Shown here one piece after another: positions 11,149-31,597 of a DNA stretch of 64,000 bases (its first letter is position 1; each line of letters starts with the position of its first letter). This stretch comes from a virus, in IMG/VR virus record IMGVR_UViG_3300021976_000006, positions 1 to 64,000 of that record; one strand, written 5' to 3'. The notes under the pieces are model-generated. The model was not told the DNA's origin, searched no databases, and saw only the letters and a list, made by a program, of their open reading frames with translations. The position numbers and the translations under genes are program-made.

Positions 11149-11149
11149 T

Positions 11150-11254: not shown

Positions 11255-11285
11255 TATATGCTGAAAGAGGAATAAATAGGCAATT

Positions 11286-11322: not shown

Positions 11323-11339
11323 TCACTAAAACAATATTA

Positions 11340-12508: not shown

Positions 12509-12537
12509 ACTTTAAAACACCCTTCTAGAGTTCCTTT

Positions 12538-15500
12538 TTAATACTTATTAAGTTCCTCTATTGTCTTTTTACCATTTTGCTTAGCTCTCTCAATTTGTTT
12601 ATAATAAGGAACAACGTCTGTTATCTCTTTACCTAAACGATAAGAACCTTTTCTTGGACCAGATTTATATCTTAAATCAGGATCATCAAAATCATCAGCC
12701 ATTAATACCTTAAATGTTTCTCTAATAACATCCCATCCTTCAGTAAGTGTACTCCATAGAGCCCATCTTTGATAAGCTTCTACATAGAAAGCAGGTTGAT
12801 ACATTTGACCAGCTTCACTAGATAATCTTTTACTACTATCTATCATAGATTTAGTAAATATAGCTCCAAATCCACTTACGTTATCAAATTCTTTTTCAGA
12901 ATCCCACATAGATATATTCATATGTTCCCAGAAGTCTGGTATATAAAATTTATCTTTTTCATCATCGGGAGGTGGCATTAATATTTTAGATAAAGTAGCA
13001 AATGTCAAAAACATAATTCCTTCTGCTATAATTTTCTTAACTCCTATAATATCTTCATTAGTGAGAGTTTTCTTATTGAATACTAAACTTTTACCATTTT
13101 TAAATCTACTTTCAAAATATGATAACATATTATTAAATGTTTTAGCAATAGCTCTACTTCCCCCTCTATAAAAACCTTCATCAGTTTTACCAGTTCTATA
13201 ATTATAGCGTTTAGCCATAAATCTAGTTCTAATCATATAAGGCATCCATTTTTTAAATACTAATGCTGAATCAAATAATAAAGCTCCATCATAAACAGAT
13301 GCATTATCTTTTGAGTAGTTACCATGTATAGCATGGTTAATATCCAATATAGTATTTCTTGATTTTAATACTTCTTCTTTAGTATCAAAATTATCTTCAT
13401 TTTTATATACTAGTTCACCATTTTTAACATCAATCATGCTCCAATAAGAAGACCCTGCTGGAGTTTTTTTATTCAATAGATAAGCTATCATAGTAATTTT
13501 TTGAACAAAATCTTCACCAGCTTCCTGAAATATAAATGCATTACTAGTTACACTTTCTACTGCTTTACCAATTAGTGTAGGAGAACCTAAAGTTAATTTT
13601 CTTTTATCTTGCCATTCACCAATTTCCTCTAAAGGTTGTAAATATTCTGATAACAAAGCTAGTTTAGAACTTACTTTATCTCCAGTTAATTTATCAGTAC
13701 CTCTAGTTACAGTATTAGAAGTATAAATAGATATTGCTTTAAGTAGTTGTACTTTAGTAAAATATTTACCTCCAGAAGCCTCTATCATATCTCCCATTAA
13801 ACCAGCTAATACATTATTAATACCTGAAAAAGGATTAAAACCTAACTGCAATACCCTTGTATATTTAATTAATGATCTAACCATATCTGATATATAATAA
13901 GATTTTTTACCAACCTCATTACCTTCATTATCATATATTAATCCACCACCAATACGCCATTTAGGAGATTCCTCTGTACCTTTAATTTTACCATCAACAT
14001 ACATATTAATAGCGTCATACATTCTAGATTGACCACCTACTACTGTTCTCTTTTTAATACCAAAAATACCATTCTCTTTTTGAGATACATATTCTTTAGT
14101 TTCAACAACACTTTGAATCATTCTAACTTTAGGAAGTACTTCCATCATCTCAGAATAATCATTAACAAATGAAGTAAATTCAAATAATACGTGACCTAAA
14201 TCAAATGATTTAATATCTGCTCTAACTTCACCTATCATTCTAAGTTTCATCTCATCAGAAGATAGCTCAGATAAAGCAAATTTAGCTTTAGGATTACCGG
14301 CCTCATCATAAAATTCAGCTCTTCCTTGACCTATTAAAATCGTTTTTAAAGCAAGTAATGTAGACTTAAATATATTATCTTTTCTCATAGAGAAGAATTC
14401 CCAGAAACTATTTCTAATTAAAGATGGAATTTTCTCTTCATTTTTTAAATCAATATAATCAGGTAATTTAGAATAGTTATCTTTCATAGTTTCTTTAAAG
14501 AAATCATAAAAAGCTTTTAGTTCAGGTTGACTTTGAATATAATTATATTCACTATTAATATATCCACCTCCTGTAGGTTTAGTATAATAATTTTCAGCTA
14601 ACCACTTCTTTGCACGTTTTACTGTTTCTTCTTTATGACTTTTACCATAAGCTATTTTAAACTGTTCATTAACTTCAGAATAATATAACATAGTAAAAGG
14701 TTTAACTAAATCTAATCTACCTAAATGATTTTCAGCTACTAAAAAAGCATAAGCTTTTCTAATACTACCTTGACCTATTAAATTAGTTAATTTATTCCTC
14801 TTAGCCCAATTTTGAAGATTTTTCATATGATCAACAATTTGTTGACCAATATTTAAAGAAGCTAATCTAGCTTTTTCTTTACCATTCATAGTAATATTGT
14901 GAATAAGTTGAGCTTCTAATCTTGGATAATCACCAAATCCTTCAAATAATTTACCTAAATGTGTAATATCATCATTAGTTTCTAATATACTTTCTACATC
15001 TATTTTAATATTTTCACCTAAACCAGATGTATTTAAATATTGATCAGATATAGTTGAAATATATTTAGATATATTCTCTAATAATTGTGTAGTTAAACTA
15101 CTTGCACTTTCTTGTAATTTACTAATCTCATGAGTTTTAGTCACTAATCTAGTAAATAGATAATCCTCTGCTAGTTGTGATTGTCCTTGAGGAGTATCAA
15201 GATCGTAAGAATTTACTCTCTCAGCAATAGCTGATAACTCATCAGATGCTAAAGTAATATAATTAGCTTCATTAATTGTTATATCAGGAGTTATCTCTAA
15301 ATCACTTAATAGTTTAGATAACTCTAATTTTTGAGTTTCATAAGAAGTTAATTGACTAACAAGAGGTTGTATTTCATTCTCATAATTAGTAATAGCTGTT
15401 TTATATAATGGAGAATTCTTATATCCTTCATCATATTGACCATCTCTACTTCTAGTATAATCTTCAGATATAGATCTAACTTCTTTTTTATAGTCAACTT

Positions 15501-16509
15501 CTATTCTCTTTAATTCTTTATTAATATCAGTAATCTTTTTATTGATTTTACCAATATTAAATTTCATTTTCTTATGTACTTGTAACATAAATCTTTCAGT
15601 AGGTTTTATATTACCTAATTGATCTATTCTACCAGATGCATAAGTATTAATTTCTTCAATTACTCCTTCTCTACGTTTATCTAATGGTCTAAAATCACCT
15701 TCAACTATTCTAGGTGAACTTTGATTAATAAAATTAAACATTTGATCAGTAAGAATATCTATATCAGATTTAACTTCAATACCTAATAATTTTTTAAAAG
15801 TATTAATTAGTTTAATTAGTAAACTAGGTTGTTTAAATTGTAATTCATTTCTAAAATCTTTATTAGATAAAAATTCAGCTATAAATTCATATCTGTTAGT
15901 AAAACCATAAGCATCTCTAATTTTAGATCTCTCTAGAATTGAATAAATACTTTTAGTTTCTATATTAAATTGCTTTTCAGCTTCTGTAGTAGGTTCAGCT
16001 AATCCACTAACTGTATAAGCATGAACTAACTCATGAATAATATATTCATTCCAAGATTCTTTATAGAATTTATTAGATTTATTACTATTTAATACTATTA
16101 AACCAGTATTAGCATCATATCTAGCAGGATTATTATCTTCTAATTGAGCCGTTAATCTAAATTTAACAAAGTCAATTTTAGATATATTTTTTAATAGATT
16201 TTCTCCTACTTTTATTAATAAAGGATTGGTAGTATTTTTTAATACTCCTTCTATAACTTGTTCAGCTTTTTTACCATTATATAAATTAGAAAATTCTACC
16301 CTATCATAAAAAGTTTCATATGTTCTAAACTTATCTATAATTTCTTGTGCAGATGTATCATCTGAATATTTATTTTTTTTAGCTGCTACATAAAGTCTTT
16401 TAGCTTCATCTCTACTGCCTGTAACTGACAATAGGTCAGTAAACAGTTTACTGTCTACCAACCTACCATCTTTTAATTTAATCGTTGGAACTATTGCACA
16501 ACTCTTCAT
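12538..16509 (-). CDS. Giant virion/ejection-type protein with N-terminal zincin (HELVH)
   Basis: About 1323 aa if started at the Met whose codon begins at 16509, one base after the stop of the giant polymerase gene; a longer start at 16554 would overlap that gene and adds an unlikely hydrophobic leader. A zinc metallopeptidase motif HELVH lies near residue 159 and is preceded by a strand (WNEYIIHE). Residues about 320-420 are coiled-coil. The rest is helical, ending with a basic tail. It is the last gene of the minus-strand unit and is probably packaged with, and injected beside, the RNA polymerase, as the giant neighbours are in crAss-like phages. Not otherwise recognised. Confidence 0.7.
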   Translation of the reverse strand: MKSCAIVPTIKLKDGRLVDSKLFTDLLSVTGSRDEAKRLYVAAKKNKYSDDTSAQEIIDKFRTYETFYDRVEFSNLYNGKKAEQVIEGVLKNTTNPLLIKVGENLLKNISKIDFVKFRLTAQLEDNNPARYDANTGLIVLNSNKSNKFYKESWNEYIIHELVHAYTVSGLAEPTTEAEKQFNIETKSIYSILERSKIRDAYGFTNRYEFIAEFLSNKDFRNELQFKQPSLLIKLINTFKKLLGIEVKSDIDILTDQMFNFINQSSPRIVEGDFRPLDKRREGVIEEINTYASGRIDQLGNIKPTERFMLQVHKKMKFNIGKINKKITDINKELKRIEVDYKKEVRSISEDYTRSRDGQYDEGYKNSPLYKTAITNYENEIQPLVSQLTSYETQKLELSKLLSDLEITPDITINEANYITLASDELSAIAERVNSYDLDTPQGQSQLAEDYLFTRLVTKTHEISKLQESASSLTTQLLENISKYISTISDQYLNTSGLGENIKIDVESILETNDDITHLGKLFEGFGDYPRLEAQLIHNITMNGKEKARLASLNIGQQIVDHMKNLQNWAKRNKLTNLIGQGSIRKAYAFLVAENHLGRLDLVKPFTMLYYSEVNEQFKIAYGKSHKEETVKRAKKWLAENYYTKPTGGGYINSEYNYIQSQPELKAFYDFFKETMKDNYSKLPDYIDLKNEEKIPSLIRNSFWEFFSMRKDNIFKSTLLALKTILIGQGRAEFYDEAGNPKAKFALSELSSDEMKLRMIGEVRADIKSFDLGHVLFEFTSFVNDYSEMMEVLPKVRMIQSVVETKEYVSQKENGIFGIKKRTVVGGQSRMYDAINMYVDGKIKGTEESPKWRIGGGLIYDNEGNEVGKKSYYISDMVRSLIKYTRVLQLGFNPFSGINNVLAGLMGDMIEASGGKYFTKVQLLKAISIYTSNTVTRGTDKLTGDKVSSKLALLSEYLQPLEEIGEWQDKRKLTLGSPTLIGKAVESVTSNAFIFQEAGEDFVQKITMIAYLLNKKTPAGSSYWSMIDVKNGELVYKNEDNFDTKEEVLKSRNTILDINHAIHGNYSKDNASVYDGALLFDSALVFKKWMPYMIRTRFMAKRYNYRTGKTDEGFYRGGSRAIAKTFNNMLSYFESRFKNGKSLVFNKKTLTNEDIIGVKKIIAEGIMFLTFATLSKILMPPPDDEKDKFYIPDFWEHMNISMWDSEKEFDNVSGFGAIFTKSMIDSSKRLSSEAGQMYQPAFYVEAYQRWALWSTLTEGWDVIRETFKVLMADDFDDPDLRYKSGPRKGSYRLGKEITDVVPYYKQIERAKQNGKKTIEELNKY

Positions 16510-16510
16510 A

Positions 16511-19500
16511 TTAACATATTGGATTATCATCAGCATCACGATATTCTTCAACATCGTTATCTAAATCATTTAACATTTGTTCATCAGATATAGATTGATC
16601 TATACCATTTTGATATTCCTCAAAGATTGTAAAGTCATTATCATCAAAGTCTATATCACTTGGACCATCTGAATAAGTAACATCAAAATCTTGAAAAGGA
16701 TTTACAAAGGTACTATTATTTTCTGAATTATCCAAATTTAAACTAGTATCTTCAACTATTTCTTCCTCATTATCAAGATCAACATAATCGTTTTCAAGAA
16801 TTTCTTGAGCTGTATAATTATTAGGAGTAACCGTTTCTTTAGGAATAGCTTTCTTAATATTACTCATACTATCAATAAATTGATTATCAATAATACTTGA
16901 ATTTAATCCATTCTCTTTAATAGGTTTAACTATATCAGTTGTAACCTCAAAAGCAATTGGAAGAGAACCATTATCCATATAATATTTAACTACCTCTTCA
17001 GCTGTCATTGTTATTGGAACTCCTGAAGCGTCAAATCCTTTTATTGATTTTAATAATTTAGAAGTAACTACATCAACAAGCTCTAAACCTATTTCTTCTT
17101 GACTCTCAGTATGAGAAGCAATATCATAAGCTAATGATCCACCAACTTTATATAAGTCTATTAGATCTTCTTTAAGAGCATTCTTAGGAGTATTTTTAAT
17201 TAACTCTTTCATACTTTTTTGATAAGCATCTAAACTAGTGAAATCAATACCTTGAATATTCTTAAAAGCTGTAGTTCTAGATTTATCAGCATTTTCAATT
17301 TGACCAAATATAGCTCTACTATTTCTCTTCATTGTAGGTAATTTTTTAGCTAAACTTTCAATTCTAGCAAATGAAGTTAACATATCATGAACAGTAGTTA
17401 TTAAACCACCTTTTAATGAGCTATAATCAGAGTAATCATCATTTTTAAAATCATCATTAAGTAAATCTAAAGCTGTTGATACATCTTTAAATACCCATGA
17501 TGGAATTGTATTAATAAATGATTTATTCTTAAATTGTAATCCATCTTTAAAATATGAATAATAATATAACTTTCTAGCAAATTCTCTAGTTTGATTATTC
17601 ATAAATAACTCTTTGAAAGCATTATTTAAATTAGTATAGAAATCACCTTCAGCTTTAATCCTAGTAGGAAACTCAATTCTTACTATTGATGAACCTCTAG
17701 CAGGTTCTTTAAGAGTTAATAACTTAATTAATAAGTTATTTCTAAAATTAGGATCTTTCTTAAGATTATATAAATCTCTACCAACTGAATTATCACCAGA
17801 TTTATGTATCATATAACCAGCATTTTGATGTGCTATCATTAAGTTATCATATTTCTCTGGAAATACTTCTTCTAAATAAGTTTTATAAGATTTATCCATA
17901 AAATGAGGAATTAATTCTTTTAAACCTAAAGTAGTTAATCCATTCATAGTTCTAAATACATTAGTATTAAGTAAGAAGAACTCTTTAGAGGTATCTAATA
18001 CTTTCTTATATATAATTATATTCTGAATAGTATTTGGATCACTTAATAAAGCTAATCTAGCATCAAAAGGAGTAGCATTAATATCATCTCCAATTTTAAA
18101 TACTGGTATATTAATATCAGTAACAAATTTAGTATTACTTTCTGTTTTATGTTTAACAACTTTTTTATCAACTAATTTGTTAATTAATTGATCATAAGTA
18201 TCAATATCAGAAGTAATATAATCATTAATAAAATCTAATTGTAGATCCTTTAATACTTTCTCTAATCTAAAGTTCTGATCAAAAGTTGATTTCATACCTT
18301 TATTTAAACTAAGTAACTTAGATACATTAGATGTATATTTAGCTTGAGTTTGTAAAGCATTAAAATACTCTGATACTTCATTTAAATGTAATAAGTCAGT
18401 AGGTTCAAGATCATTTTCATTTAAACTATCTTGTAATACTTGAACACTTAAAGTTTTCTTATGAGTATCTTTATATCTCTGTATTTTATCAAATTGTTCA
18501 GGAGATAAATTAGAACTATTAGGATCAAATCCTGTATTAAGTTGAATCTCTTTATCTAATTTTCTTTGTAAATCATCTAACTTAATACCTAATCTTATAT
18601 CACCACTTACATAGTGTCTAATAGTAGGTTGATTCATAAAAAGAATTGCTTCTTCCATTGTATAACCTATTGATAGCATATAAGCAACTGTTGGTAATGT
18701 ATCAGTAGTTGCACCATTAAATGTTAAGTTTAATAGTTTAGCTAACTGTTCTTTAGCATTATCTGTCATTGCTGATAGTAGAGTTGATATATTATCATTC
18801 TTTCTATTAGTATCACTATTAATAGTATTAATACCACTAAATCCTGTAGCTTTTCTACCTGATATAGTAGGTAATATCATACCATTTAACAATTCTACAT
18901 TATAAGTAGATAATAAAGCATGAGTAACATTAGCAATAGCTACTGGAGCAATACCTGATTTACCTTCCATATTACTTCTATTAGCATTAAAACGTGCAAT
19001 AGGAGTATTAGGAGAAACAGTTAAATTCTGATCTAAACCTAATATTCTTTCTACATCTTTAGCTACATCTTTAATAGAGTCCATTGAAGCAGGAATAGTT
19101 GCTGCTCTACTTCTAACATAATCATTAGTTAGAAACTTAATTTGAGCTTTCAATAATCCGTTATTATTAACTCCTCTATTAATAGGTTTCTGTTCAATAA
19201 ACTCTGCTAATGTAGAAGGCATATTTAATGCTTTAAACACTGACATTGTTTCATCAACTGTTGCTTTAGTATATGAAAATCCTAAATCTTTAAATTTAGT
19301 TTTAAGTAATTTATTATTACTCATATTCCATTTTTTATATTCTCTATATTTTTCAATATCTGTTTTAGCAGTACCATATAATATAGGAGTACCATTTTCA
19401 TCAGTATAGAAATCAGCTCTATGTATAAACTCAGAGTCAATATCAAAATCCGCTCCAGATAAAAATACTATTTGTTTTGGAAATACACCAACTGAACCAT

Positions 19501-22500
19501 ATTCAACAGGTAAGAAACCAACAACTTTTAATGACATCATAGAGTGTTTATCCTGCGTAGGAATACGTACTCCAAACATCTTTAATACTTCTTGAAATCT
19601 TTCATCTGAAGGATCTTTACCTAATAATTCATTAGCAAAAGCTGGAAGTAAACATTCTGAGTAATAGTTACCATCAGCATCTAACTTCATATGTTCTAAT
19701 GAACGCATTTTACCAGTTTCTTTATCTTTAATAAATATACCAGTATCAGATACTAAAGATACTTTTAATCCAGGAACTTTCTGACTTAATACTCCTTTAC
19801 TAAAGTGAGCTAAGAATAGTTGTTCAGCTTTATTAACTATTGGACCTAAGTTCCAGTTAAACTGTCTTTCACCATTATGATCAGGTGTAAAGAAGTTAGA
19901 TAAAACTTCATCAGAACCAGAAGCTATAATTGTATCATAGAACTTCTTAGTTAGTGCTTTAGAATTAAACTCTCCAGATATAGGGTCTCTCATATAAGCA
20001 ATAGCTTCTCTAAATCCATCTAATCTATTGTCAGCAAGTAATTGTCTATAGTAATCTCTAAGTTGTCCTAGAGTCTTAATATCATCATTATATTGAAAGT
20101 CAATAGCTAAGTTATCATCTTGTTCACTATGTATTAATTGTATTAATTGAGTACCATGAATAATCTTAGATTTACCTGATGGAGTTTCTACTTGTAATCT
20201 TTTGAATTTATTTTCAAGATCCATAATAGATTTTGTAAAATCAAATTTACCATCTTCTGCAAATTCTGCTGGAGCTATAGTAGCCATTTTAGAAGCAGAT
20301 TCTGGTAAAGCTTGATCTACTCCTTGAATAATCATCGCTTTATATTTATTATAAAGATATTCAAATCCTTCTAAAGGTTTAGATGGAAAAGGAACATCAT
20401 TACCATTAATATCTTTAATAACACCCATTATAGTATTACCTTCTTTATCTTTAGCACCAACTAAATTAGGACTAAGTATTAATTCAGATAATTTAAAATA
20501 GAAATCACCATTATAAGCAACAGTTTTAGTGGAGTTAAGAGCAGAGTTATTCTTTTCTAGAATATTCTTCTCATTCCAAGTAATATGTTGACCATTCATA
20601 ATTTTATTATAAATATTAGCTACCTGAGTAGGGAATCTACCCCATCTTTGTAGTTGTAATATTTTATGATCTAAAGTTACGTATGATTGAGCATCTGCTA
20701 TATCAATTTTACCTAGATTCAAATCTTTAGTAAATACTTTAATAGCATCTTCAATTTCTTGAGTATTTAATACTCCTTCAGCTTCTAATTCAGTTCTCTT
20801 AACTTCTTGAAAAGCTTGAATATCAAATTCTGTAAGATTAGTAGTTTCAATAAACTTGGTAGGTTCTTTATAAACAGCTACTTTAGTAAATCCTTCTCCC
20901 ATATCTGGACCAGAACCTATAATACCTTTAGCACGTTTAAACCAATCTACTGTATTTTTAACTTTTTTAGCATAATTATCTAATAATAAGTTATTAATAC
21001 CTAAAGTATTAATATAAGCATTAAGATAAAAGTCAGTAATTAACTTATCAGCTTTATCAGCTTTAAGTTCTTCTTTGTCTTTTAAATAACCTTGTTTTAT
21101 TAATTCTATATTAGGTAATTTACTTATTACATCATTAGATTGTAAAGCTAATTTAAATGAAGCAATATCAGATTCTAATTTAAGTTTAATTAATTGCTTA
21201 ATTTTATCTTCTTCATATAATAAAGTAGCATAAATATCTTCAGCAGTTTTATTATTTGGATCATTAGTTATATCATCAATATATTGATCTAACTCATAAC
21301 CAGAAAACTCCATTAATTTGAAACCTCTAGCACCTTGTTTATCATTATAACCTTTCCAAACAGTAGTTTCAGGTTTACCAAATTGAGTTTTAACTTTATG
21401 AATTCTAATAGCTTCTTGAGCTAAATAATCAAATAATATATCAGTAGCTTTAGAATTTATAGTTTTAAAATCATTAACCGGTAAAAATACTCCATAACCA
21501 GTATTAGATGCTTCCATCTGATTAATATTAAATAAAGCTGCTTGACCAACTCTTTTAGCTTTACCAGTTTCATCAGCTCTATTAAGACTCTTTCTATTAG
21601 ATAAGAACATTAACATATCTGATAATAAATACTGTTGAGCATTGAATTTACCAAATGTAACTCCTTCACCTTCTTCTACTTTATTAACATCACCTTCAAT
21701 AGTTGTTTGACGATAACCATCAATCATAGAAGGAGTTAATCCTTTCATAATTAAATCTACATTTTCATCAGCTAATAGGTGATTTAATTGTTTATTCTCT
21801 AATGGATTAATAAAGTCATCCTTTTTAGTTTTCTCTTGTTCAAGAACTCTTTGTCTTTCAACAGGATCAACTAACCATCTAAGTTTAACTAAACCAAATG
21901 AAGGTCTAATAATTGAGTATACATTTTTACCATCAGCATTTTGAAAACTATTTTCACCTACTGTAGGGTCAAATAAAGCGTTCTGCTCAGCTATAGATTT
22001 AATCCTAGTAGCAGCACCTCTTTCCCTTCCTTTATCATCCTTGCTAGTTAAAAATGGATTATATCCAGATTTAAACTCTGAAACAATAAATGGAATATTA
22101 CCAGCATCATATAAACCTTCAACTCCTAAGAATGAATCAACAAAATCTCTTCCTTCTTGATCCAGAGAATCATAAGGAGCTTTCTTTAATAAAGAGTAAG
22201 TTATATAAGCATTTGATAATTTAATAGATACTTTAGAAAAAGCATTTTTAATCTCATTAGACCTTAACTTAGCTTCATTAAATGTATCAACATTAATATT
22301 CTCACTTCTATTAATAAAATCTACTGTACTATTAATAGCTTTTTTAAGATTTTCATCAAAAGCCGTTTCCTCAATAGTAATTGAATAATTTTGCAACCAT
22401 TCATTAAATTGTACATCTTTAGCAGAGGCATTATTAGATTCTATTAATCTAGATTGTTCATTAGAATGAAGTATAGTATACCATGCTACTTTCTCATTAT

Positions 22501-25500
22501 TAAATGCAGTAACAAACTTTCTCCAAAGATCATAATTCTTAGTTATATCTTGAGTATTTATACCACCTTCAAGAGTTAATCCTAAATCATTTAATAATTG
22601 ATTAAATACAGCATTAATATCAGTATCAAATTCAGCTAAAGCTTTAAATCTAGGAAGTACACTTACTTCTTCAATACCGCCTAATGCTCTAACTAAACCT
22701 CTATAAACTTTCTTAAAGTCTACAGCTTCTTCTATATCCTGACCATATTCATCATTAGTTTTAACAGTAACTAAAGATATATACTCTCTTAATACTTTAC
22801 TAAATGAAGTCTCACCACCAATAGTCCAAACATCTTTATCAAATACTTCTCCTATATCATCAATATTCTCTTGATCTTCTTCTATAGTTCTAGCTTCATC
22901 AATATCAAATATTTGAGATTTAGCTCTAACATCTTTCTTAAGAGCAGCAATATTAGTTGGTAATGTAAATACATTTCTTTTTAATTCTAAGTTTCTAGAC
23001 ATAGCATCAATAAAGATGTCATCATTCATTAATCCTTTATCCTCTAAATATTGAGCATAATAAGGATTTTCATCTATACTATAGAATTTAGCTTTTTCAG
23101 CTATTAATATATCCAAGATAGCATTATCTGATAATCCTGGATGTAATTTATTTATTTTTGATTGTAATAATTTATTAGTTAAACTTGCTACAATACCTTG
23201 ACCTTCTAATTGAGTAGTAGTAATTGTATTACTAGTAGCATCTGTACCTTTAGTAAATATACTAAATACTCTTTCTTGATTTGCATAACTAGAAAATATA
23301 TTAGATTGTATAGTAGCATTTTTAAATTTACCTCTATTAATATTATAGAATAGAGATTGTAGTTCATCCATTTTACCAGTAATAAATCTAAACCATTCAG
23401 TTATTTTATTCCATATTGAATTTAATCCTGATTTATTAGTATTAGCTGAGTTAGCATATGTTTTAAAATCATTAGCCATTTTCTCTTCTAACCATAAATC
23501 AGCTAATTGATTATCTATATAATTAGAATACACAGATGAACTAGCTTTTAAATTAGATATATCAGCTGAAGTAGCTTTACCATATTTTTGAGCAGCTATA
23601 TTATAAGCAGATTGTATCTGTTTATCAGATATTAACATTCTAAATACAGCGTGAAAAGCTTCATGATATTGTGTACCAGCTTCAGCAGTAGTATTAAGAT
23701 ATATAATATTATCAGAGAATGCACCAAAAGTGGTACCATTATTTTTAATATTACCTAATAGTCTATTTAGATCTTCTACAGATATAGTAGATGGTAAATT
23801 ATCATTAATCCATTGTATAGCTTGGGGATAATCCATAATTTCTTCAGATGTTCCTATAGAGAATACAGGATCACCAGTAGCAGGTTTATGTCTATTAATT
23901 ATCTCTCTTATTTTAACTTCTCTTCCTCTTTTTTGTAATTTATTTAAATCATTATAATTTTCTAATAAAGGTTGAACTTCATTAGATATTTGCTGTTTTA
24001 ATTGATTTGATAGTTCATTATAAGAAGGATCAAATTTAGATAAATCTTCTATTGGAACAATAATAGTTTCTTCTTCAATAGACGTTTCTTCTGGATATTC
24101 AATATCATCTTCTATTAAATTTATAGTAGGATCAATATCCATCTCACTAACTATATAATCAGCAAAAGGATTGTCAGAATCAATTATATTACCTTGAGAT
24201 TCAGTAACTTGTTCAGTAGTTGGATTATTAACTACAAAATCATTTAATTTAGCATCATCAATTTTAAAAGTAATCTGATTCTGTAAAGCAGGATTTACTA
24301 TAACACTAGGAACAACATTAATAGATAATCTAGAAACAGCATCTTTTGCAGATATTGCATCAGCTACTGTAGTTCTAAGATTGGTTCTATTTAATCCTAA
24401 TTGATCTATTAAATCAGATATAGTTCCATAAGTACTAGCATCTAAAGCTACACGTTTACCTTTTTGGCCTTTAATTTTTAAAGCTAAAGTATAACCTTTA
24501 TTTGTAGCATTAGGAGTAGTAATCTGTAATTGAGCATAAAGAATAGATACAAATATATTATCACTTAAATATCTATTTATTTTTGATACTTCTTCTTTCA
24601 TAGTATCAGGATCAGTAATAGCTTTTAATTTAGTTACTGAATCAAATAAATATTTATATAACTGATTTTGTTTTTGTTCACTAAGTACTTGATTTTGAGC
24701 ACCTACCCAGTAATATTTACCATTATTAGCTTGAACTAATACTACATATCTATCTTCAAGTTCTTTAGGAATAGAAGGAACATTTTCATCTTCTCTCATA
24801 TCTCTAGTACCTTCAGTTATCTCTAACTGTCTTACTTGATCATATATATATGGTTTACCATTATTAGCAGGTAATTTAGCAGCAAGAAAATCCTTAATTA
24901 ATGTTCTAGGAGTTTCAGGATCAAACGTAAAATCTCCATTCCAATTTAAGTTAAAACCTAAAGTGGTTAAATCTTGAGGATTTAATCTTCCTCTTTCTTT
25001 AAGCAATGCATTTATTTTAGCATTCCTTGCTACAGTTTTATTATATCCTTCTGAAGTTAAATTAAAATTAACACTATCAGTTTGTTCAACACCATCTATT
25101 TGATTGATATTACCTAGTTTTTTACCTTGATATTCTAATGATACAATCATTGAAGGTATTAAATAAGATGTAGTAGAGTTAAATTGACTAACTTTCTGTC
25201 CAGCTACATAACCTAAGTCCGCTGGATTTTGAGCTACTAATTCTACATTAGCTAATATTTGACTTATTGGAGTATTATGAAATATATCTCTAACTTCAGC
25301 ATCAGTATAATACTGAGGATTAGTTTCCATAAATCTCAATCTCTGAAGTCTATCAAAGAAACTAACATTGGTAACTAATTGAATATTATCATTGGCTTTA
25401 GCTTCTTTAGTTTCTTGTTCTAAATTAGCAGCTTCTTGAACTTTAGTTTTCTCTTCTTCTCTAATAGCTAGTAATCTCTGAGAAACTTGCGCATGTAAAT

Positions 25501-28351
25501 CTCTTAAAGCATCTATATTAATACCATTAGAATTAAAACCTGGAACTACTTGCTCCATATCTTTTTTAAGAGCAGATAAAGCAGGTTCAGATATATCACT
25601 AGATAATGATTGTACAGCTTTAACTTTATTAGCAGTTTGAGCTAAATAATCATCATAATCTTTTTGTACTTGAGAACCTTGTAAATCCAATTGTTGTAAA
25701 TCAAAATTAAGATCATCTAATCTTTGAGTTAAAGAATCAATTGTTTGTTGATCTAAATCAGCAGGATTCTCTAAAGCTTGAGTTACATTATTAATTTCAC
25801 CTTGTAAGTATTCTTTAGTAAACACAGGAGATTGTGTATCATCTTCTTGTGTAATTGTATTATTTTCGTTTTGTATTTCAGGAACAGCTTCTACAGGAGT
25901 AGTAGTATTAACTTCAGCATCTTCAGCTGCCTGAATAGCTTCCTCTTGAGCAATTCCTTCTCTTAATTTTGATTGATACTCTGTTGAGGTAATATTGTTA
26001 TATTCAGATATTAAATCTTGAATAGCACTATTATTTCTAGATTTACTACTTTCCCAAACACTTAATGCTAATTTCTCTCTATTAAGTCTTTCTCTGACCT
26101 CTTTAGGAGATTCAATAGTAATGTTCTCAGGGCTTTGTAATTGTTCTTCTAAGCTCTCTATTCTGGTACTAGCATTATTAATTAATCTATCTACTTCTTT
26201 AGTATCTTCATTAATCACAAATCTATTAAATTTATTATTAATAATATCACCTTGATTTAAATAATTTTCTTCATAAGCTTGTACTGTACCATCTTCTTTT
26301 GGATTATAGTTTTCAGTTAAATAATCATTATAGAATTTAATATTCAATTGATTATTTCTAATATCTTTACTTATTTCTTTTGCTCTAGTAGCTTTTTCTT
26401 CAGAACTTAAATCTGGATTAGATTGTATTTCAGATAATTTTTTACTAAGATCTTCATTTTTCTTATTAAGATCAAATGTATTATTTATAATACCTAAAGC
26501 TTCTGATTTAACTTGTTGAGATTTATTAGTATCAGGTAAAGTGTTAAGAGTATCAAATAAACCAGTATTTTGTTTATAGATATTATCTAATTGATTTATT
26601 CTTTCTAAATAGAAGTCTAACTGTTGATCAGATATAACTTTCCCATTATGAAGAGTTTTAGTTATAGCTTCTACTTCATTCCTTTTACCATCTGCAATAG
26701 CAGGTATAATACTGTCATCTGAATAGTGTTTTTTACCACGAATTTTATCTAATCCTACTTTACTAATATCACCACCAGCACCTAATATAGCCCCAAATAA
26801 AGCAGCTTCTAAACCTTCTTTAATAGTGTCTTTAGAGAAGAATTTAGTTCCAAACTTACCTTCTCCCTCTTTTTCACTACTACCTATAGATAAATCATAT
26901 AGATTTTCAACACCTCTTTGTGAAAATGTTTGAAATAATTCTTCTAAACCCTCCTCAGCTGCTGATCCTAAATATTTATTCTCAAATAAATCATTCATGA
27001 ATTTACCAGCATTACCAGATAAACCTTTTTTAAAGTTATTAAATACTTTACTAATAGCTGCTTCTGATACATCACCACCTAGTTCATTAAGTACAGATCT
27101 AGCTAATACTTTATCTCCACCTCCACCTAACCAGTTAACTAATCTGTTAGTACCAACTGCTGATTCTATTAAACCATTAATAGCACCAGTTAATAAACCA
27201 ACACTACCTGCTTTAGCTTCAGATAAACCTGAATTTAAAGCTGATTCATAAGCTTCATTATAATTTAATATAGCACCAGCACCAAAGTTAACAAGTGTAT
27301 CAAACTTAGCAGTTTGTGAGGCAGCAGGAGCAATAGCAGAACCTAATAGTCTACCAGCAGTACCCATAATAGCCATTTGAGCTAAAGATGCAGCACCTTG
27401 TCCTATACCACCGCCTAACCATTCAGCTGTACCTCCAACTCCAGGTTTAGTTTGATCTATAGTTACATTAGTATTAAATCTTTTACCAAATTCTGTTGAG
27501 TTTTCAGCATATTCTTTTGCTAAATCACCAGTTCCAGGTAAAGCAGCATAAACATTAGAAACACCCCTATTAAAGTTAACTAAGTTTTTTGCTAAACCTG
27601 AATATGTATTTGCTAAACCAGCACCTACTTCTCTAAAGAAACCTTTTTGAAAAGGTACTGCTCCATAAGCATTTAATACTGATTTACCAGTTTTAACTAT
27701 TTTATCATAATTCTCTATTTTAGTTTTAGCTAAAATATCATTTCCTTCTGCATCTTTATCAAGATAGAAGAAGTATTGACTATTAGGATTAAAGTTTAAT
27801 TTAAGTTTTCTGTCTCCTAATACATTTTGTTCAATACCAAGACCATATTTTATATTATCTAAAACATCATCTTTTTCCATTAAAGGTAAATTCTCATCTA
27901 ATGATTCTAGATTACCAAAATCATCGTTTCTTACAACACCATTTAATAGAGCTTTATCAAATCTTTTATTTTGATTATAAGCACCCAATACTTCATCTTT
28001 AATTTGATCAGTAGATTTAGCTGTAGATTCAGCAAGTAATTTATCATCTTGTTTAGAAAATGGATCTAATACTGTATTAAGAGCACTAGTTGCACTATTA
28101 AGAATACTATTCCAGTATTCAGAAACTCTAGCTTGTTTATTAATATCTTCTTCTTTTAAACCAGCATCAACTAAATCTTGATCCTTTTTAGCTTTTTGAT
28201 TTCTAACTTCTTGTTCAAAATCAAATGCTTCTACAGGATTAACTGAAGAAAATTGTTGACTATTCAAATTTCTAGAAGCTTCATTAGAGGCTATACTAGA
28301 TTTACCTGAACTTAGTTTATTTAATAGACTATCTAATTCTTTATCTGGCAT
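16511..28351 (-). CDS. Giant virion RNA polymerase polypeptide (crAss-like), fused to ejection-type and zincin regions
   Basis: A single 3946-aa frame. In order: a polar N-terminus; a Gly/Ala-rich hydrophobic stretch (about 305-345 and 380-400), like membrane-inserting internal virion proteins; an AAEEGLEEL segment; long coiled-coil and Gln/Asn-rich regions (about 560-950); a zincin motif HEAFH at 1563-1567; and the polymerase core with the metal-binding DFDID at 2968-2972 within FLSGADFDIDSEF. This DxDxD is the catalytic triad of the double-psi beta-barrel RNA polymerases; the crAss-like phage phi14:2 enzyme gp66 is the studied relative. It is expected to be packaged, enter the cell and transcribe early genes. 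The zincin might process the polypeptide. The C-terminus is very acidic. The frame is unbroken, with no intein or stop. Confidence 0.88.
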   Translation of the reverse strand: MPDKELDSLLNKLSSGKSSIASNEASRNLNSQQFSSVNPVEAFDFEQEVRNQKAKKDQDLVDAGLKEEDINKQARVSEYWNSILNSATSALNTVLDPFSKQDDKLLAESTAKSTDQIKDEVLGAYNQNKRFDKALLNGVVRNDDFGNLESLDENLPLMEKDDVLDNIKYGLGIEQNVLGDRKLKLNFNPNSQYFFYLDKDAEGNDILAKTKIENYDKIVKTGKSVLNAYGAVPFQKGFFREVGAGLANTYSGLAKNLVNFNRGVSNVYAALPGTGDLAKEYAENSTEFGKRFNTNVTIDQTKPGVGGTAEWLGGGIGQGAASLAQMAIMGTAGRLLGSAIAPAASQTAKFDTLVNFGAGAILNYNEAYESALNSGLSEAKAGSVGLLTGAINGLIESAVGTNRLVNWLGGGGDKVLARSVLNELGGDVSEAAISKVFNNFKKGLSGNAGKFMNDLFENKYLGSAAEEGLEELFQTFSQRGVENLYDLSIGSSEKEGEGKFGTKFFSKDTIKEGLEAALFGAILGAGGDISKVGLDKIRGKKHYSDDSIIPAIADGKRNEVEAITKTLHNGKVISDQQLDFYLERINQLDNIYKQNTGLFDTLNTLPDTNKSQQVKSEALGIINNTFDLNKKNEDLSKKLSEIQSNPDLSSEEKATRAKEISKDIRNNQLNIKFYNDYLTENYNPKEDGTVQAYEENYLNQGDIINNKFNRFVINEDTKEVDRLINNASTRIESLEEQLQSPENITIESPKEVRERLNREKLALSVWESSKSRNNSAIQDLISEYNNITSTEYQSKLREGIAQEEAIQAAEDAEVNTTTPVEAVPEIQNENNTITQEDDTQSPVFTKEYLQGEINNVTQALENPADLDQQTIDSLTQRLDDLNFDLQQLDLQGSQVQKDYDDYLAQTANKVKAVQSLSSDISEPALSALKKDMEQVVPGFNSNGINIDALRDLHAQVSQRLLAIREEEKTKVQEAANLEQETKEAKANDNIQLVTNVSFFDRLQRLRFMETNPQYYTDAEVRDIFHNTPISQILANVELVAQNPADLGYVAGQKVSQFNSTTSYLIPSMIVSLEYQGKKLGNINQIDGVEQTDSVNFNLTSEGYNKTVARNAKINALLKERGRLNPQDLTTLGFNLNWNGDFTFDPETPRTLIKDFLAAKLPANNGKPYIYDQVRQLEITEGTRDMREDENVPSIPKELEDRYVVLVQANNGKYYWVGAQNQVLSEQKQNQLYKYLFDSVTKLKAITDPDTMKEEVSKINRYLSDNIFVSILYAQLQITTPNATNKGYTLALKIKGQKGKRVALDASTYGTISDLIDQLGLNRTNLRTTVADAISAKDAVSRLSINVVPSVIVNPALQNQITFKIDDAKLNDFVVNNPTTEQVTESQGNIIDSDNPFADYIVSEMDIDPTINLIEDDIEYPEETSIEEETIIVPIEDLSKFDPSYNELSNQLKQQISNEVQPLLENYNDLNKLQKRGREVKIREIINRHKPATGDPVFSIGTSEEIMDYPQAIQWINDNLPSTISVEDLNRLLGNIKNNGTTFGAFSDNIIYLNTTAEAGTQYHEAFHAVFRMLISDKQIQSAYNIAAQKYGKATSADISNLKASSSVYSNYIDNQLADLWLEEKMANDFKTYANSANTNKSGLNSIWNKITEWFRFITGKMDELQSLFYNINRGKFKNATIQSNIFSSYANQERVFSIFTKGTDATSNTITTTQLEGQGIVASLTNKLLQSKINKLHPGLSDNAILDILIAEKAKFYSIDENPYYAQYLEDKGLMNDDIFIDAMSRNLELKRNVFTLPTNIAALKKDVRAKSQIFDIDEARTIEEDQENIDDIGEVFDKDVWTIGGETSFSKVLREYISLVTVKTNDEYGQDIEEAVDFKKVYRGLVRALGGIEEVSVLPRFKALAEFDTDINAVFNQLLNDLGLTLEGGINTQDITKNYDLWRKFVTAFNNEKVAWYTILHSNEQSRLIESNNASAKDVQFNEWLQNYSITIEETAFDENLKKAINSTVDFINRSENINVDTFNEAKLRSNEIKNAFSKVSIKLSNAYITYSLLKKAPYDSLDQEGRDFVDSFLGVEGLYDAGNIPFIVSEFKSGYNPFLTSKDDKGRERGAATRIKSIAEQNALFDPTVGENSFQNADGKNVYSIIRPSFGLVKLRWLVDPVERQRVLEQEKTKKDDFINPLENKQLNHLLADENVDLIMKGLTPSMIDGYRQTTIEGDVNKVEEGEGVTFGKFNAQQYLLSDMLMFLSNRKSLNRADETGKAKRVGQAALFNINQMEASNTGYGVFLPVNDFKTINSKATDILFDYLAQEAIRIHKVKTQFGKPETTVWKGYNDKQGARGFKLMEFSGYELDQYIDDITNDPNNKTAEDIYATLLYEEDKIKQLIKLKLESDIASFKLALQSNDVISKLPNIELIKQGYLKDKEELKADKADKLITDFYLNAYINTLGINNLLLDNYAKKVKNTVDWFKRAKGIIGSGPDMGEGFTKVAVYKEPTKFIETTNLTEFDIQAFQEVKRTELEAEGVLNTQEIEDAIKVFTKDLNLGKIDIADAQSYVTLDHKILQLQRWGRFPTQVANIYNKIMNGQHITWNEKNILEKNNSALNSTKTVAYNGDFYFKLSELILSPNLVGAKDKEGNTIMGVIKDINGNDVPFPSKPLEGFEYLYNKYKAMIIQGVDQALPESASKMATIAPAEFAEDGKFDFTKSIMDLENKFKRLQVETPSGKSKIIHGTQLIQLIHSEQDDNLAIDFQYNDDIKTLGQLRDYYRQLLADNRLDGFREAIAYMRDPISGEFNSKALTKKFYDTIIASGSDEVLSNFFTPDHNGERQFNWNLGPIVNKAEQLFLAHFSKGVLSQKVPGLKVSLVSDTGIFIKDKETGKMRSLEHMKLDADGNYYSECLLPAFANELLGKDPSDERFQEVLKMFGVRIPTQDKHSMMSLKVVGFLPVEYGSVGVFPKQIVFLSGADFDIDSEFIHRADFYTDENGTPILYGTAKTDIEKYREYKKWNMSNNKLLKTKFKDLGFSYTKATVDETMSVFKALNMPSTLAEFIEQKPINRGVNNNGLLKAQIKFLTNDYVRSRAATIPASMDSIKDVAKDVERILGLDQNLTVSPNTPIARFNANRSNMEGKSGIAPVAIANVTHALLSTYNVELLNGMILPTISGRKATGFSGINTINSDTNRKNDNISTLLSAMTDNAKEQLAKLLNLTFNGATTDTLPTVAYMLSIGYTMEEAILFMNQPTIRHYVSGDIRLGIKLDDLQRKLDKEIQLNTGFDPNSSNLSPEQFDKIQRYKDTHKKTLSVQVLQDSLNENDLEPTDLLHLNEVSEYFNALQTQAKYTSNVSKLLSLNKGMKSTFDQNFRLEKVLKDLQLDFINDYITSDIDTYDQLINKLVDKKVVKHKTESNTKFVTDINIPVFKIGDDINATPFDARLALLSDPNTIQNIIIYKKVLDTSKEFFLLNTNVFRTMNGLTTLGLKELIPHFMDKSYKTYLEEVFPEKYDNLMIAHQNAGYMIHKSGDNSVGRDLYNLKKDPNFRNNLLIKLLTLKEPARGSSIVRIEFPTRIKAEGDFYTNLNNAFKELFMNNQTREFARKLYYYSYFKDGLQFKNKSFINTIPSWVFKDVSTALDLLNDDFKNDDYSDYSSLKGGLITTVHDMLTSFARIESLAKKLPTMKRNSRAIFGQIENADKSRTTAFKNIQGIDFTSLDAYQKSMKELIKNTPKNALKEDLIDLYKVGGSLAYDIASHTESQEEIGLELVDVVTSKLLKSIKGFDASGVPITMTAEEVVKYYMDNGSLPIAFEVTTDIVKPIKENGLNSSIIDNQFIDSMSNIKKAIPKETVTPNNYTAQEILENDYVDLDNEEEIVEDTSLNLDNSENNSTFVNPFQDFDVTYSDGPSDIDFDDNDFTIFEEYQNGIDQSISDEQMLNDLDNDVEEYRDADDNPIC

Positions 28352-28352
28352 C

Positions 28353-29996
28353 TTATTCGTTTGTTATGTTTTTTGCTTTACCTTGATTTTCAAAATAAGG
28401 TAATATTTCATTATCATAAATAGATTTTCTTGAATCATATGATTGTATTAACTCAAGTAGTGCTCTTTGTTTTTCAGTAGCTTTACCACTATTAAAATCT
28501 CTTTCAGCTTGTTTAACTGTTTCTAATTCTTCAGGACTAGAAGTTAAGTTAGTTTTAATAAAGTTAAGATCTAATTTTGCTTTACCTTCACTATTAAATA
28601 CATTACCATGTTGAGTTCTACCTAAACCTTCGTAATAAGCATTTGAATAACCCATTTCTCGTAAAGCTTCTTTAGGAGCTGCTGTTTTTAAGAATGATTT
28701 TAATTCTGGCTTATCTTTAGTACCAGCATTATAGTTATATTCAGCAACTGTTCTTTCTTCTACTTCATAAGGTATTCCATTTTTATAACCAAATGGTTTA
28801 CCATTAATATATTCTATTCTAGGTTTAGCAGTATTAACACCTTGTTTATTAGCATCAGTAACTAATAGCTGACCTGTTTTCTTATTAACCCAAGCATTTT
28901 TATACCCAACTAATGTACCATCTGATACATCTACTGTTTTTGATACTGGAGTTATTTTACCTTCACTAATATCATATATTTTACCACTTATCTTTTGATT
29001 TTTAACTGGTTGATTCTCAGTACCATATTGAGAAGTACCTGAACCAAATACTGCTTGTTTTTTACCTTCTTCACCAATAGTACTTATTGTACCAACTCTA
29101 TTATTAAATTCATTAAATGATGGAGCATTAGTAAAACTTTCTTTACCAGCAGCAACTACTTTTTGTCTAGCTGTTTCTGCTTTATATCTTTCAACACCTA
29201 ATTGATCTTGATCTCTTTTTTGTTGGTAAGCAAACTGACGTTCACTTAAACCATAATTTAAGAGTGCTGTATTAGTTTTTTCTTCTCTACCATACTGATT
29301 TACCAATCCAGATATATTACTCTGTACAGCTCTTTGAGCTTGTTCAGGAGATAAACCTTGTTGTTGATAAGCTCTCATTAATCTTTCCTGTCCAGCAGTA
29401 TCAGATGAAATAGCTTTTCTCCAGTTAGCTAAATTTCTAGAGTTTGTAGTTTTATTACCTATATCTTCCATAGAACCATGAGCTATAGCACCTGCTTTAG
29501 TCCAATCTTCTAATGTATTAACAGCTTCAACTCCTGGAATATTAGCAGTAAGATTACCTCTAGTATCAAGACCATTAAACTCTGGTTGAATAAATAATTT
29601 ACCTTCTGCTTTCATCTTAGCAGCAATTTGTTGATTCTGTCTAAGTTGTTCATTACCTTGTTTAATAGTAGCTAAACGAGGATCAGTAGCAAATTGTGTA
29701 TTTAATCTACGTATATCTCTTATAAACTCAGGATTAGAAGTATTACCTTGATATTTATCAAGTAAAGTACTAGCTTGAGCTTTAAAGTCATTTGTGAATT
29801 TATCTCTAAACTGAGCATAAGCTGGACTTAATGCTTCCATAGAAGCTAATCCTGCTTGTGTTTGTAATTGTTGCTGTTCAGCTTGATCACCTCTTTGCTG
29901 TATTGCTTGTCCAGCTTTTAACATCTCATCGAATGGCAGCGGAATATACTGTTCCAATGTTTGTTGAACTGGTTGGGAATATCTACTAATTGCCAT
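28353..29996 (-). CDS. Putative ejected cargo protein, Gln-rich, 547 aa
   Basis: Helical, Gln- and Ala-rich protein: the N-terminus FDEMLKAGQAIQQRGDQAEQ and many QQ pairs suggest an extended helical bundle. There are no cysteines or recognised catalytic motifs. It sits one base upstream of the giant polymerase gene and directly after another Gln-rich cargo-like gene. In crAss-like virions the genes in this place encode proteins stored in the tail barrel or head and released at infection. That role is inferred from position and composition. Confidence 0.6.
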   Translation of the reverse strand: MAISRYSQPVQQTLEQYIPLPFDEMLKAGQAIQQRGDQAEQQQLQTQAGLASMEALSPAYAQFRDKFTNDFKAQASTLLDKYQGNTSNPEFIRDIRRLNTQFATDPRLATIKQGNEQLRQNQQIAAKMKAEGKLFIQPEFNGLDTRGNLTANIPGVEAVNTLEDWTKAGAIAHGSMEDIGNKTTNSRNLANWRKAISSDTAGQERLMRAYQQQGLSPEQAQRAVQSNISGLVNQYGREEKTNTALLNYGLSERQFAYQQKRDQDQLGVERYKAETARQKVVAAGKESFTNAPSFNEFNNRVGTISTIGEEGKKQAVFGSGTSQYGTENQPVKNQKISGKIYDISEGKITPVSKTVDVSDGTLVGYKNAWVNKKTGQLLVTDANKQGVNTAKPRIEYINGKPFGYKNGIPYEVEERTVAEYNYNAGTKDKPELKSFLKTAAPKEALREMGYSNAYYEGLGRTQHGNVFNSEGKAKLDLNFIKTNLTSSPEELETVKQAERDFNSGKATEKQRALLELIQSYDSRKSIYDNEILPYFENQGKAKNITNE

Positions 29997-29998: not shown

Positions 29999-31597
29999 TT
30001 ATCTATTAAATGTGTTTTCATAAAATCTTAAGTTAGGAAACATTTCATATAACATTCTTTGTCTAAGAGCATCATTAGTTTTTTGTTGACCTATCATTTG
30101 TTGATTCTGATATGTTTGTTGTAGTTGTCCTAAACCTGTAGTTAATAGGTTTTGTTGAGCACCTTTATTTTGTAAGTTATTATTATAAATACCTAAATTA
30201 ATTTGTTGTGCTCTTGCTTGTTCTTCTACAGATTGTTGACCTAAGTTATTATATATACTACCTCTTTGTTGTCTAATTTGATTATTTGCTTGTTCTTGTT
30301 GCATATAAACATCTGCTAATTGATTTTGTGTATTAGCAAATACATTATTTTTATTAGCTCTAGCAATAGGATCACTAGAAGTAGTATTATTAATTTGTCT
30401 AAATTGAGCAGATTGATTTCTATCAATACGTCTTGCTAAAGGATTTAAACTAATTTCTTCTGGCATATTATTTAAAACCTGATTTGTATAAGGATTTAAT
30501 AATGGTTGTACATTTTGTTGTTGTTCTACTTTACCAAACATTCCTCTACCAATATTAATTAATGAAGGAGCATATTGAGCTATTGAATTAAGAACACTAC
30601 CTATTCCTGGAGTATTACTTCCTCCACCATTTTGTCCTAACTGAGGAGTATAAGCAGTTGTACTAGGAGCCATACCAGTTTGACCTATTTGACCAAATGG
30701 TCTTGTTGGAGGTTTAGCTCCAAATGCTGTTCCTGGAGATTGTATTCCGGTATTAGCAGATGGTGAAGATATTGGTAATAATCCTCTAGATTGTTGTAAT
30801 AACATTCCTGGATTAAAACCAGTCGCTGGATTTTGTGCTGATAAATAAGGAGGTTTAGTAGGATCAACAAATGAACCCAAAGCCATTTTATCAGTTGGTT
30901 TTTTACTATTCTTATAGTTTTTGATATTTTGTAAAATAGTGTTTTGAGTTATTTTATCATTATTATCTAAAGCTTGTTGATAATCTTTACTCTCTTTACT
31001 AGTTATAATAAATGTTCCTGATTCTGCTGTAACAAAATTATTCTTAGTATCTTTACCTTTAGAGTGAGGTTCATATAAACCACCAGTTTCAGGATTAATA
31101 CCAGTATATTTTCTTAATACTTTACCAGTAGCAGGATCAATTTGTAATTCACCTTTTTCTATATTAATAACTTCATTAGGTAACACTTCACCACCATCAG
31201 CAAATACTAAATTACCATAAGGATTACTATTAACAGTATCAAATTGTGATTCAATAGTTGTATTATAATTAGTTTTAGTAGCTTGTAGCTCAGCTGCTTT
31301 ACGGGCTTTTTCAGCTCTTTGTTTCTTATTAGATCCAAATATACCAGCTATACCACCAATTAAACCACCTCCAATAGCACCTATAGCAGTTCCAATACCT
31401 GGAATTACTGATCCTATAGAAGCTCCTAAACCAGCACCACTACCTGCTCCTGATAAAAAACCACCAGCATCAGTATCCTGACCTACAGCAGCACCTAGGA
31501 GATTTCCTCCTAAGCCTGCTATATTACCTACAACGTTTGGATCAACGTTGCCGCCCCATGCATATTTAGTATAATTTATTTTTTTATTTTTCTTCAT
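29999..31597 (-). CDS. Putative ejected cargo protein with glycine-zipper membrane segment, 532 aa
   Basis: Residues about 25-90 are a long Gly-rich hydrophobic stretch (GAGLGASIGSVIPGIGTAIG and on) like glycine-zipper segments that insert into membranes. Then come a globular part (LPNEVINIEKGELQIDPATG) and a Pro/Gln/Asn-rich C-terminal half. This is the composition of phage proteins that cross or pore the cell envelope during DNA ejection. It follows the muzzle-like gene and precedes the Gln-rich cargo gene. A good host-type promoter lies just upstream, inside the preceding gene. Confidence 0.65.
   Translation of the reverse strand: MKKNKKINYTKYAWGGNVDPNVVGNIAGLGGNLLGAAVGQDTDAGGFLSGAGSGAGLGASIGSVIPGIGTAIGAIGGGLIGGIAGIFGSNKKQRAEKARKAAELQATKTNYNTTIESQFDTVNSNPYGNLVFADGGEVLPNEVINIEKGELQIDPATGKVLRKYTGINPETGGLYEPHSKGKDTKNNFVTAESGTFIITSKESKDYQQALDNNDKITQNTILQNIKNYKNSKKPTDKMALGSFVDPTKPPYLSAQNPATGFNPGMLLQQSRGLLPISSPSANTGIQSPGTAFGAKPPTRPFGQIGQTGMAPSTTAYTPQLGQNGGGSNTPGIGSVLNSIAQYAPSLINIGRGMFGKVEQQQNVQPLLNPYTNQVLNNMPEEISLNPLARRIDRNQSAQFRQINNTTSSDPIARANKNNVFANTQNQLADVYMQQEQANNQIRQQRGSIYNNLGQQSVEEQARAQQINLGIYNNNLQNKGAQQNLLTTGLGQLQQTYQNQQMIGQQKTNDALRQRMLYEMFPNLRFYENTFNR

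Follow-up and report, generated by a model that had tools for sequence, protein, structure and literature searches.

A crassvirus gp47-zincin-polymerase fusion protein and a terminal-cysteine pattern suggesting that the crassvirus transcription cargo is delivered as one covalent string

The vRNAPs of crassviruses homologous to the protein studied here are packaged in the virion and transcribe early genes (PMC10172136, PMC10136315), and in crAss001 gp47, gp49 and gp50 were detected in virions by mass spectrometry (PMC10172136); the masses given there are 262.5 kDa for gp47, 154.5 kDa for gp49 and 276.9 kDa for gp50. Several hundred kDa of polymerase must pass crassvirus tail constrictions of less than 50 Å. 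Bayfield et al. proposed partial unfolding for this passage, without a mechanism that would preserve order and continuity. Giant multidomain proteins encoded in this gene block have been described by Yutin et al. (PMC7886860), and fusion is already on record in the p-crAssphage GenBank entry, in which gp45 is annotated as a zincin fusion of an RNAP-associated protein and gp44 as a fusion involving the polymerase. N4-like vRNAPs contain no cysteine, which has been attributed to passage through the tail and periplasm (PMC3715699, PMC3915230).

We analyzed a window of 64,000 nucleotides (positions 1 to 64,000 of IMG/VR record IMGVR_UViG_3300021976_000006, which is 94,231 bases long). Judged by its genes, the source genome is a crassvirus (Crassvirales): PHROGs matches identified the portal (3e-151), major capsid protein (5e-121) and terminase large subunit (3e-106). 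The portal is closest to those of uncultured crassviruses, cr7_1 and cr4_1 among them, and the terminase is closest to that of phi14:2. The genes of the block studied here are as follows.

31602..35807, minus strand: crassvirus muzzle protein (Pfam crAss_MUZ, E 8.7e-28)
29999..31597, minus strand: P0005, Gly/Ala-rich cargo protein, gp45/C1-like, without cysteine (probability 85 against gp45 residues 126-287)
28353..29996, minus strand: P0004, cargo protein at the gp46/C2 position, without cysteine (weak gp46 similarity)
16511..28351, minus strand: P1, 3946 aa, equivalent by profile comparison to crAss001 gp47 plus the catalytic vRNAP subunit (gp50/phi14:2 g066)
12538..16509, minus strand: P2, gp49/g065-type RNAP-associated protein (homology to gp49)

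The order muzzle, C1-like, C2-like, P1, P2 is that of named crassviruses, and this transcription block is syntenic with those of crAss001, the Suoliviridae and Flavobacterium phage Fpv1. The match of P0005 to gp45/C1 includes the region of the predicted transmembrane helix of C1 (PMC10172136). P0004 matched gp46 weakly (probability 35) and its cr55_1 homologue better (probability 83). For P2, the open reading frame list gave a start at 16554. We take 16509 (MKSCAIVP) as the likely start, because both the gp49 homology and the cysteine tag begin at the second Met; the corrected start lies one base past the P1 stop codon.

A sequence-only reading of this DNA had described 16511-28351 as one unbroken frame. 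This was confirmed: P1 is a single open frame of 3946 aa under translation table 11, and it lies on the minus strand, which that reading had left unstated. HEAFH was found at residue 1563, as claimed, and is the only HExxH in P1 (0.016 expected from composition, 1 observed); DFDID likewise was found at residue 2968 (0.006 exact matches expected from composition). The long coiled coils that had been noted correspond, in a crude test, to four heptad-rich stretches at about residues 697-990. The phi14:2 enzyme is indeed shorter (g066, 2180 aa, against 3946 aa for P1), since in phi14:2 the counterpart of gp47 (g067) has a gene of its own.

Profile comparison, composition, motif inspection and structure modeling divided P1 into the following parts.

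25784..28162, minus strand: residues 64-856, similar to residues 83-832 of crAss001 gp47, an RNAP-associated virion cargo protein (hhalign probability 99.6, E 4.6e-24)
27152..27451, minus strand: Gly/Ala-rich block, residues 301-400, 38% Gly plus Ala (composition)
23309..23839, minus strand: zincin A, a zincin-like metallopeptidase domain, residues 1505-1681, similar to the gp47 C terminus (profile, model)
22868..23284, minus strand: variable, low-confidence linker between the zincin and the polymerase module, residues 1690-1828 (model, alignment)
18281..21220, minus strand: two-barrel RNA polymerase core of the phi14:2 gp66 type, residues 2378-3357 (profile and fold)
19436..19450, minus strand: DFDID catalytic motif, residues 2968-2972 (motif)

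Further profile comparisons aligned residues 1505-1681 of P1 to residues 2096-2295 of gp47 and residues 1829-3665 to residues 274-2203 of gp50. When the polymerase profile was compared with PDB sequences, only phi14:2 gp66 (6vr4) matched (E 7e-104). The polymerase core was modeled with a pLDDT of 85.8 and a pTM of 0.84, and a Foldseek search with the model returned 6vr4 (E 3.3e-29, probability 1.0). P1 thus carries the DxDxD motif in a gp66-like two-barrel fold. Together, the profile mapping and the 6vr4 fold match identify P1 as gp47 plus the catalytic vRNAP in one chain. The proposal that one chain combines a zincin-like protease with a polymerase of the phi14:2 type therefore held, and the zincin is placed where the gp47 part meets the polymerase. 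This fusion as such is not new and is the same as that in the Suoliviridae giants. By analogy with the homologous systems, P1 is rather likely to be a virion-packaged transcription protein. A search of PDB with the P1 sequence gave no match, and the sole match in Pfam and PHROGs was DUF4830 at residues 2329-2384 (window 21200-21367), which scored 24.6 bits against a cutoff of 23.5 and was treated as probably due to chance because it lies inside the region matched to gp50. Met1784, in the linker, is common to three close relatives and is a possible internal translation start.

The sequence-only reading had also assigned the N-terminal part of P1, with its Gly/Ala-rich hydrophobic segment, to crossing of the envelope. 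The Gly/Ala enrichment is real, and, in favor of such a role, it falls within a part conserved with the Suoliviridae. The segment did not qualify as a classical transmembrane segment by hydropathy: the highest 19-residue Kyte-Doolittle mean across the whole of P1 is 1.28, so the sequence does not indicate a membrane-spanning role. In addition, the homologue, gp47, has been described as cargo associated with the RNAP, and adjoining genes separately encode ejection proteins that are C1-like and, weakly, C2-like. We consider a channel role for this part very unlikely.

The conservation of the zincin was followed across relatives. A search of viral contigs with whole P1 found no match, and relatives were found by aligning short conserved blocks against viral contigs; the locus set comprised IMG/VR contigs selected for their resemblance to polymerases or zincins of crassviruses. 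The following features of the zincins are referred to below.

23651..23665, minus strand: HEAFH active-site motif, residues 1563-1567 (invariant in 98/98)
23483..23488, minus strand: invariant pair E1622-E1623 (98/98)
16021..16035, minus strand: zincin B in P2, HELVH, related to zincin A

H1563, E1564, H1567, E1622 and E1623 did not vary in 98 of 98 sequences, with identity down to about 20%, and E1623 was invariant too in a separate alignment of eight rows. The domain thus shows the zincin pattern of HExxH and a downstream Glu under strict conservation, with E1623 as the candidate third zinc ligand, and this conservation suggests that zincin A is probably an active protease. The model of the domain (pLDDT 80.5, core above 90) contains the elements H71-81, E87-90, E104-109, E112-115, H123-135 and H176-201, that is, a helix, three strands, the HExxH helix and the Glu helix, in agreement with a zincin fold at residue 1563. 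Searched against PDB, this fold gave no match below E 5 and no significant solved zincin; against BFVD it matched mainly crassvirus proteins, together with large polyvalent proteins at borderline significance. No curated Pfam peptidase model matched the domain in the window, and among the 25 Pfam families most matched by the 98 members the sole peptidase was Peptidase_M41 (two members, E 0.087). Zincin A and zincin B are related (hhalign probability 95.8, E 7.8e-9). Zincin B also occurs in phi14:2 g065 and in the cr55_1 and cr4_1 counterparts of P2. The zincin tree was a quick tree. One 4646-aa chain (L124, frame 2882-16819) has HELLH, HEFAH and HEAFH, all ahead of the polymerase motif; a Pfam search with this chain found no domain.

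Five arrangements of these modules were observed. In 100 distinct loci, gp47, zincin and polymerase form one frame. In crAss001 and 14 further loci, gp47 and zincin form a separate protein and the polymerase is on the opposite strand. In up to 16 loci (all of those inspected fit), gp47 is separate and the zincin lies close to the N terminus of the polymerase protein. Twelve distinct chains are fused giants without HExxH. In the fifth arrangement a B-type zincin follows the polymerase, as in gp33 of Fpv1 (L172:34368-47573), a cultured phage; this fused protein of 4401 aa has the motif KGLDYDID and carries zincin B at its C-terminal end. Examples of the HExxH-less fused giants, which have a polymerase and are 3876 to 5641 aa long, are those of L229, L238, L243, L251, L282 and L295. 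One split genome (L177) has no HExxH in any of its three proteins; since some split genomes lack the motif, the zincin is common but not universal.

These arrangements bear on the suggestion of the sequence-only reading that the zincin severs the chain it belongs to, separating the gp47 part from the polymerase, on maturation or entry. The position of the zincin at the junction, followed by a variable, low-confidence linker, fits that suggestion, as does its retention in 100 of the 122 distinct fused chains whose 5' parts are complete enough, and autoprocessing has been proposed by Iyer et al. (2017) for the zincins of polyvalent proteins (PMC5512222). Against it, the zincin is intact where zincin and polymerase are separate proteins encoded on opposite strands, 12 distinct fused giants contain no HExxH anywhere in frame, and the catalytic residues persist in proteins that join the zincin to the polymerase and not to gp47. 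A self-cleaving polyprotein would have the protease if and only if the polymerase is fused, and this is not what was observed. The zincin and the fusion are uncoupled, and the domain therefore cannot owe its conservation to cutting of the zincin-polymerase junction. The variable linker yielded no cleavage motif that is conserved, N4 vRNAP, which also has a zincin, is packaged unprocessed (PMC5512222), and the terminal-cysteine rule described below suggests selection for joined modules. Self-cleavage on maturation or entry thus appears unlikely.

The zincin instead may be an injected effector that rides on the string of modules and cuts a host target in transcription, defense or the envelope. 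This proposal, to which we give less than even weight while ranking it above self-cleavage, is compatible with the string model set out below. It is in keeping with the retention of the zincin regardless of whether gp47, the polymerase or both are its fusion partners, with the related zincin B in gp49-type proteins or after the polymerase (some genomes have both zincins), and with the borderline polyvalent neighbors in BFVD. It leaves the constant place beside the polymerase without explanation. Cleavage by the zincin after entry, including of P1 itself, is possible.

Inspection of P1 and P2 revealed cysteines at the ends that face each other.

16514..16516, minus strand: C-terminal Cys3946, the last residue of P1 (sequence)
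16498..16500, minus strand: sole cysteine of P2, fourth residue from the corrected start and predicted partner of Cys3946

P1 contains two cysteines in 3946 residues, Cys3946 and one internal, at residue 2900. The same was seen elsewhere: crAss001 gp47 has one cysteine in 2341 residues, at 2339, and in the same phage gp50 has Cys5 and Cys2404 and gp49 has Cys5; the single cysteine of phi14:2 g067 is its last residue; gp49-type proteins usually have one, at positions 3 to 5; and polymerases have one near each end. Counted in stop-to-stop frames under table 11, among which recoded genomes may be lost, a C-terminal cysteine was present in 15/15 gp47-zincin proteins, 120/123 fused gp47-polymerase proteins and 97/104 free polymerases, and an N-terminal cysteine in 178/180 gp49-like proteins and 66/71 free polymerases. 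The outer ends are nearly devoid of cysteine (gp47 N terminus, 1/18; gp49 C terminus, 0/164). At 304 gene junctions, both cysteines were present in 227, neither in 65 and only one in 12 (Fisher P of about 1e-51); when clusters were thinned to less than 35% identity, the figures were 99, 46 and 10 (P of about 6e-28). Several of the 12 one-sided junctions trace to errors of start site, distance or neighbor, which suggests that most one-sided cases are such errors, though a small number seem genuine. As an internal control, the reading frames just upstream of fused gp47-polymerase genes gave 61 junctions with neither cysteine, 11 with both and none one-sided (72 junctions); in the 11, gp47 itself seems to be broken.

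The pattern follows the position of the break. Nine all-in-one frames of about 4,700 to 5,600 residues, two of them near-identical, were found, and eight have no cysteine; the exception (L308) has one, at its last residue. That frame is broken inside gp49, and the pair is present there (LLTC, then MAANC), as it is at a break inside the polymerase (L131; VHCK, then MSINC). The rule also is kept in the 14 loci in which gp47 and the polymerase are on opposite strands, so gene adjacency is unnecessary. All 12 of 12 reference genomes, including that of the window, fit. Overall, cysteines occur at both ends of a break and are missing from fused junctions and outer ends, with few one-sided exceptions. 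Several internal cysteines are present in the chains of the Intestiviridae; these and Cys2900 of P1 mean that the cysteine-free rule is not absolute. In control proteins, a set that still held unlabeled gp47-like reading frames, a C-terminal cysteine was found in 64/243; after removal of the frames just upstream of string members it was found in 19/143, in proteins far richer in cysteine.

Two simpler origins of the pattern were considered. An origin of the terminal cysteine in overlaps between start and stop codons was rejected, because the cysteine lies 0 to 8 residues before the stop and the rule is kept with gp47 on the opposite strand. That the N-terminal cysteine is a general packaging tag was weakened by its absence from the gp47 N terminus and from the C1- and C2-like proteins. 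A literature search found no paper on terminal cysteines in crAss-like phages, the phi14:2 structure paper lying outside the search; our comparison of about 200 relatives shows, at the level of sequence, a terminal-cysteine rule that was previously unreported.

Several further observations were made on these termini. Fpv1 gp33 has one cysteine, at 4400, and the next protein begins MAC. In p-crAssphage, gp47 (L004:5060-7633), at the C1 position and outside the RNAP string, has its only cysteine at 856 of 857. The N-terminal cysteine often is the first residue of a mini-motif shared by different string proteins, CPN...W..L....G...A...W....G.(I/V)P (for example, at L288:5642, L313:5258, L251:13171 and L131:14214). 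In L131:4463-19256 and L141:4751-18189 the polymerase seemingly is in two reading frames, split upstream of DFDID in a manner recalling beta/beta'; at this break L131 has the cysteine pair and L141 the upstream cysteine only.

We propose that P1 would be one link of a string, gp47 - zincin - polymerase - (zincin B) - gp49. The string would be packed in the head and would thread its way into the host before the DNA. Its continuity would be kept in every lineage: modules in the same gene are linked by a peptide bond, and where genes are separate the cysteine at the C-terminal end of the upstream protein would be joined to that at the N-terminal end of the downstream protein, most likely by an interchain disulfide. 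In the window, Cys3946 of P1 would be joined to Cys4 of P2. The paucity of other cysteines would allow only the right ends to pair and the chain to pass unfolded. The zincin is probably active; its conserved substrate would not be the zincin-polymerase junction, and its action more likely follows entry and is directed at the string or at host proteins. For this explanation as a whole, a packaged gp47-vRNAP link in a string joined by peptide bonds or disulfides, we judge the balance to be modestly favorable. The wider generalization, that the transcription cargo of crassviruses invariably arrives as a single, covalently unbroken string of about 5,000 to 6,500 residues in which fusion and the terminal-cysteine disulfide are interchangeable, could equally well prove right or wrong. 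We hold in the same even balance its corollary that a break anywhere (inside gp47, beside the zincin, inside the polymerase, or before or inside gp49) would bring new cysteines at the C-terminal and N-terminal ends that it creates.

The homologies, folds, conserved catalytic residues and co-occurring terminal cysteines are observations, and it is from the co-occurrence that we infer the interchain disulfide. The cytoplasm, where virions are assembled, is reducing, so the bond would need to form late. It may form in the virion or in the oxidizing periplasm and be reduced once in the cytoplasm of the host. Other interchain disulfides are present in the crAss001 tail (PMC10172136), and oxidized thiols in such virions therefore have precedent. 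A point against the string is the p-crAssphage gp47, whose C-terminal cysteine has no known partner. The terminal cysteines alternatively may bind a common third partner, such as a metal centre, the portal or C1 protein, or the DNA-packaging core. Each tagged chain could then dock separately, which would be in keeping with the co-occurrence that was observed. This is difficult to square with the near absence of cysteine from the outer ends, with the loss of both cysteines together on fusion (no one-sided case among the 72 control junctions) and with the cysteine-free C1- and C2-like proteins of the window, and we regard it as improbable.

If the string model is true, the frequent and seemingly harmless fusion and fission of these genes is explained, and the cargo is a natural case of a giant protein that is split and rejoined by terminal thiols. 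The terminal-cysteine rule offers a concrete answer to the passage problem, end-to-end threading, that can be tested cheaply in crAss001 and phi14:2. The question raised by the sequence-only reading is reversed: selection seems to keep the parts joined, not cut.

Comparison with known systems places P1 among several giant injected proteins. In Thermus phage P23-45 a two-barrel RNAP also is fused to a giant ejected protein, but it lies at the N terminus of the tape measure, and the portion of that report available describes neither a protease nor terminal cysteines (PMC10770324). Polyvalent proteins (Iyer et al. 2017) likewise have a zincin inside giant injected multidomain chains, and the predicted secondary structure of the P1 zincin fits the core described for their zincin-like MPTase, although no Pfam MPTase model matched P1 and the fold of the domain did not significantly match any solved zincin. 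N4 vRNAP (Schitoviridae) is a giant, packaged and injected polymerase with a zincin (PMC5512222). Unlike P1, it has a T7-type polymerase followed by the zincin in one chain and has no terminal-cysteine pattern; the P1 core shows no T7-like single-subunit domain and, among PDB sequences, matches only 6vr4. Cysteine is avoided in both N4-like phages and crassviruses, but in crassviruses a cysteine is found at each internal end.

Within the crassviruses, phi14:2 gp66 (PDB 6vr4) is a homologous two-barrel polymerase with DFDID. It differs from P1 in being a separate protein of 2180 aa; g067 has no HExxH, and the zincin is in g065 instead. crAss001 resembles the window in its gp47, gp50 and gp49 modules, in the zincin at the gp47 C-terminal end and in a cysteine at every internal chain end, but its modules are in three genes, with gp47 on the strand opposite to gp50 and gp49. 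The giants of the Suoliviridae (delta crassvirus), for example cr55_1 QOR58155 (4551 aa), cr4_1 gp26 and cr113_1 gp38, have, like P1, a gp47 part, an HEAFH/HEAWH zincin and a DFDxD polymerase in identical order. P1 is about 400 to 600 aa shorter and 22 to 33% identical to them in matched stretches, and the cr4_1 and cr113_1 frames, unlike that of P1, contain recoded stop codons. As in the window, the giant of the Suoliviridae carries a C-terminal cysteine and the second protein an N-terminal one.
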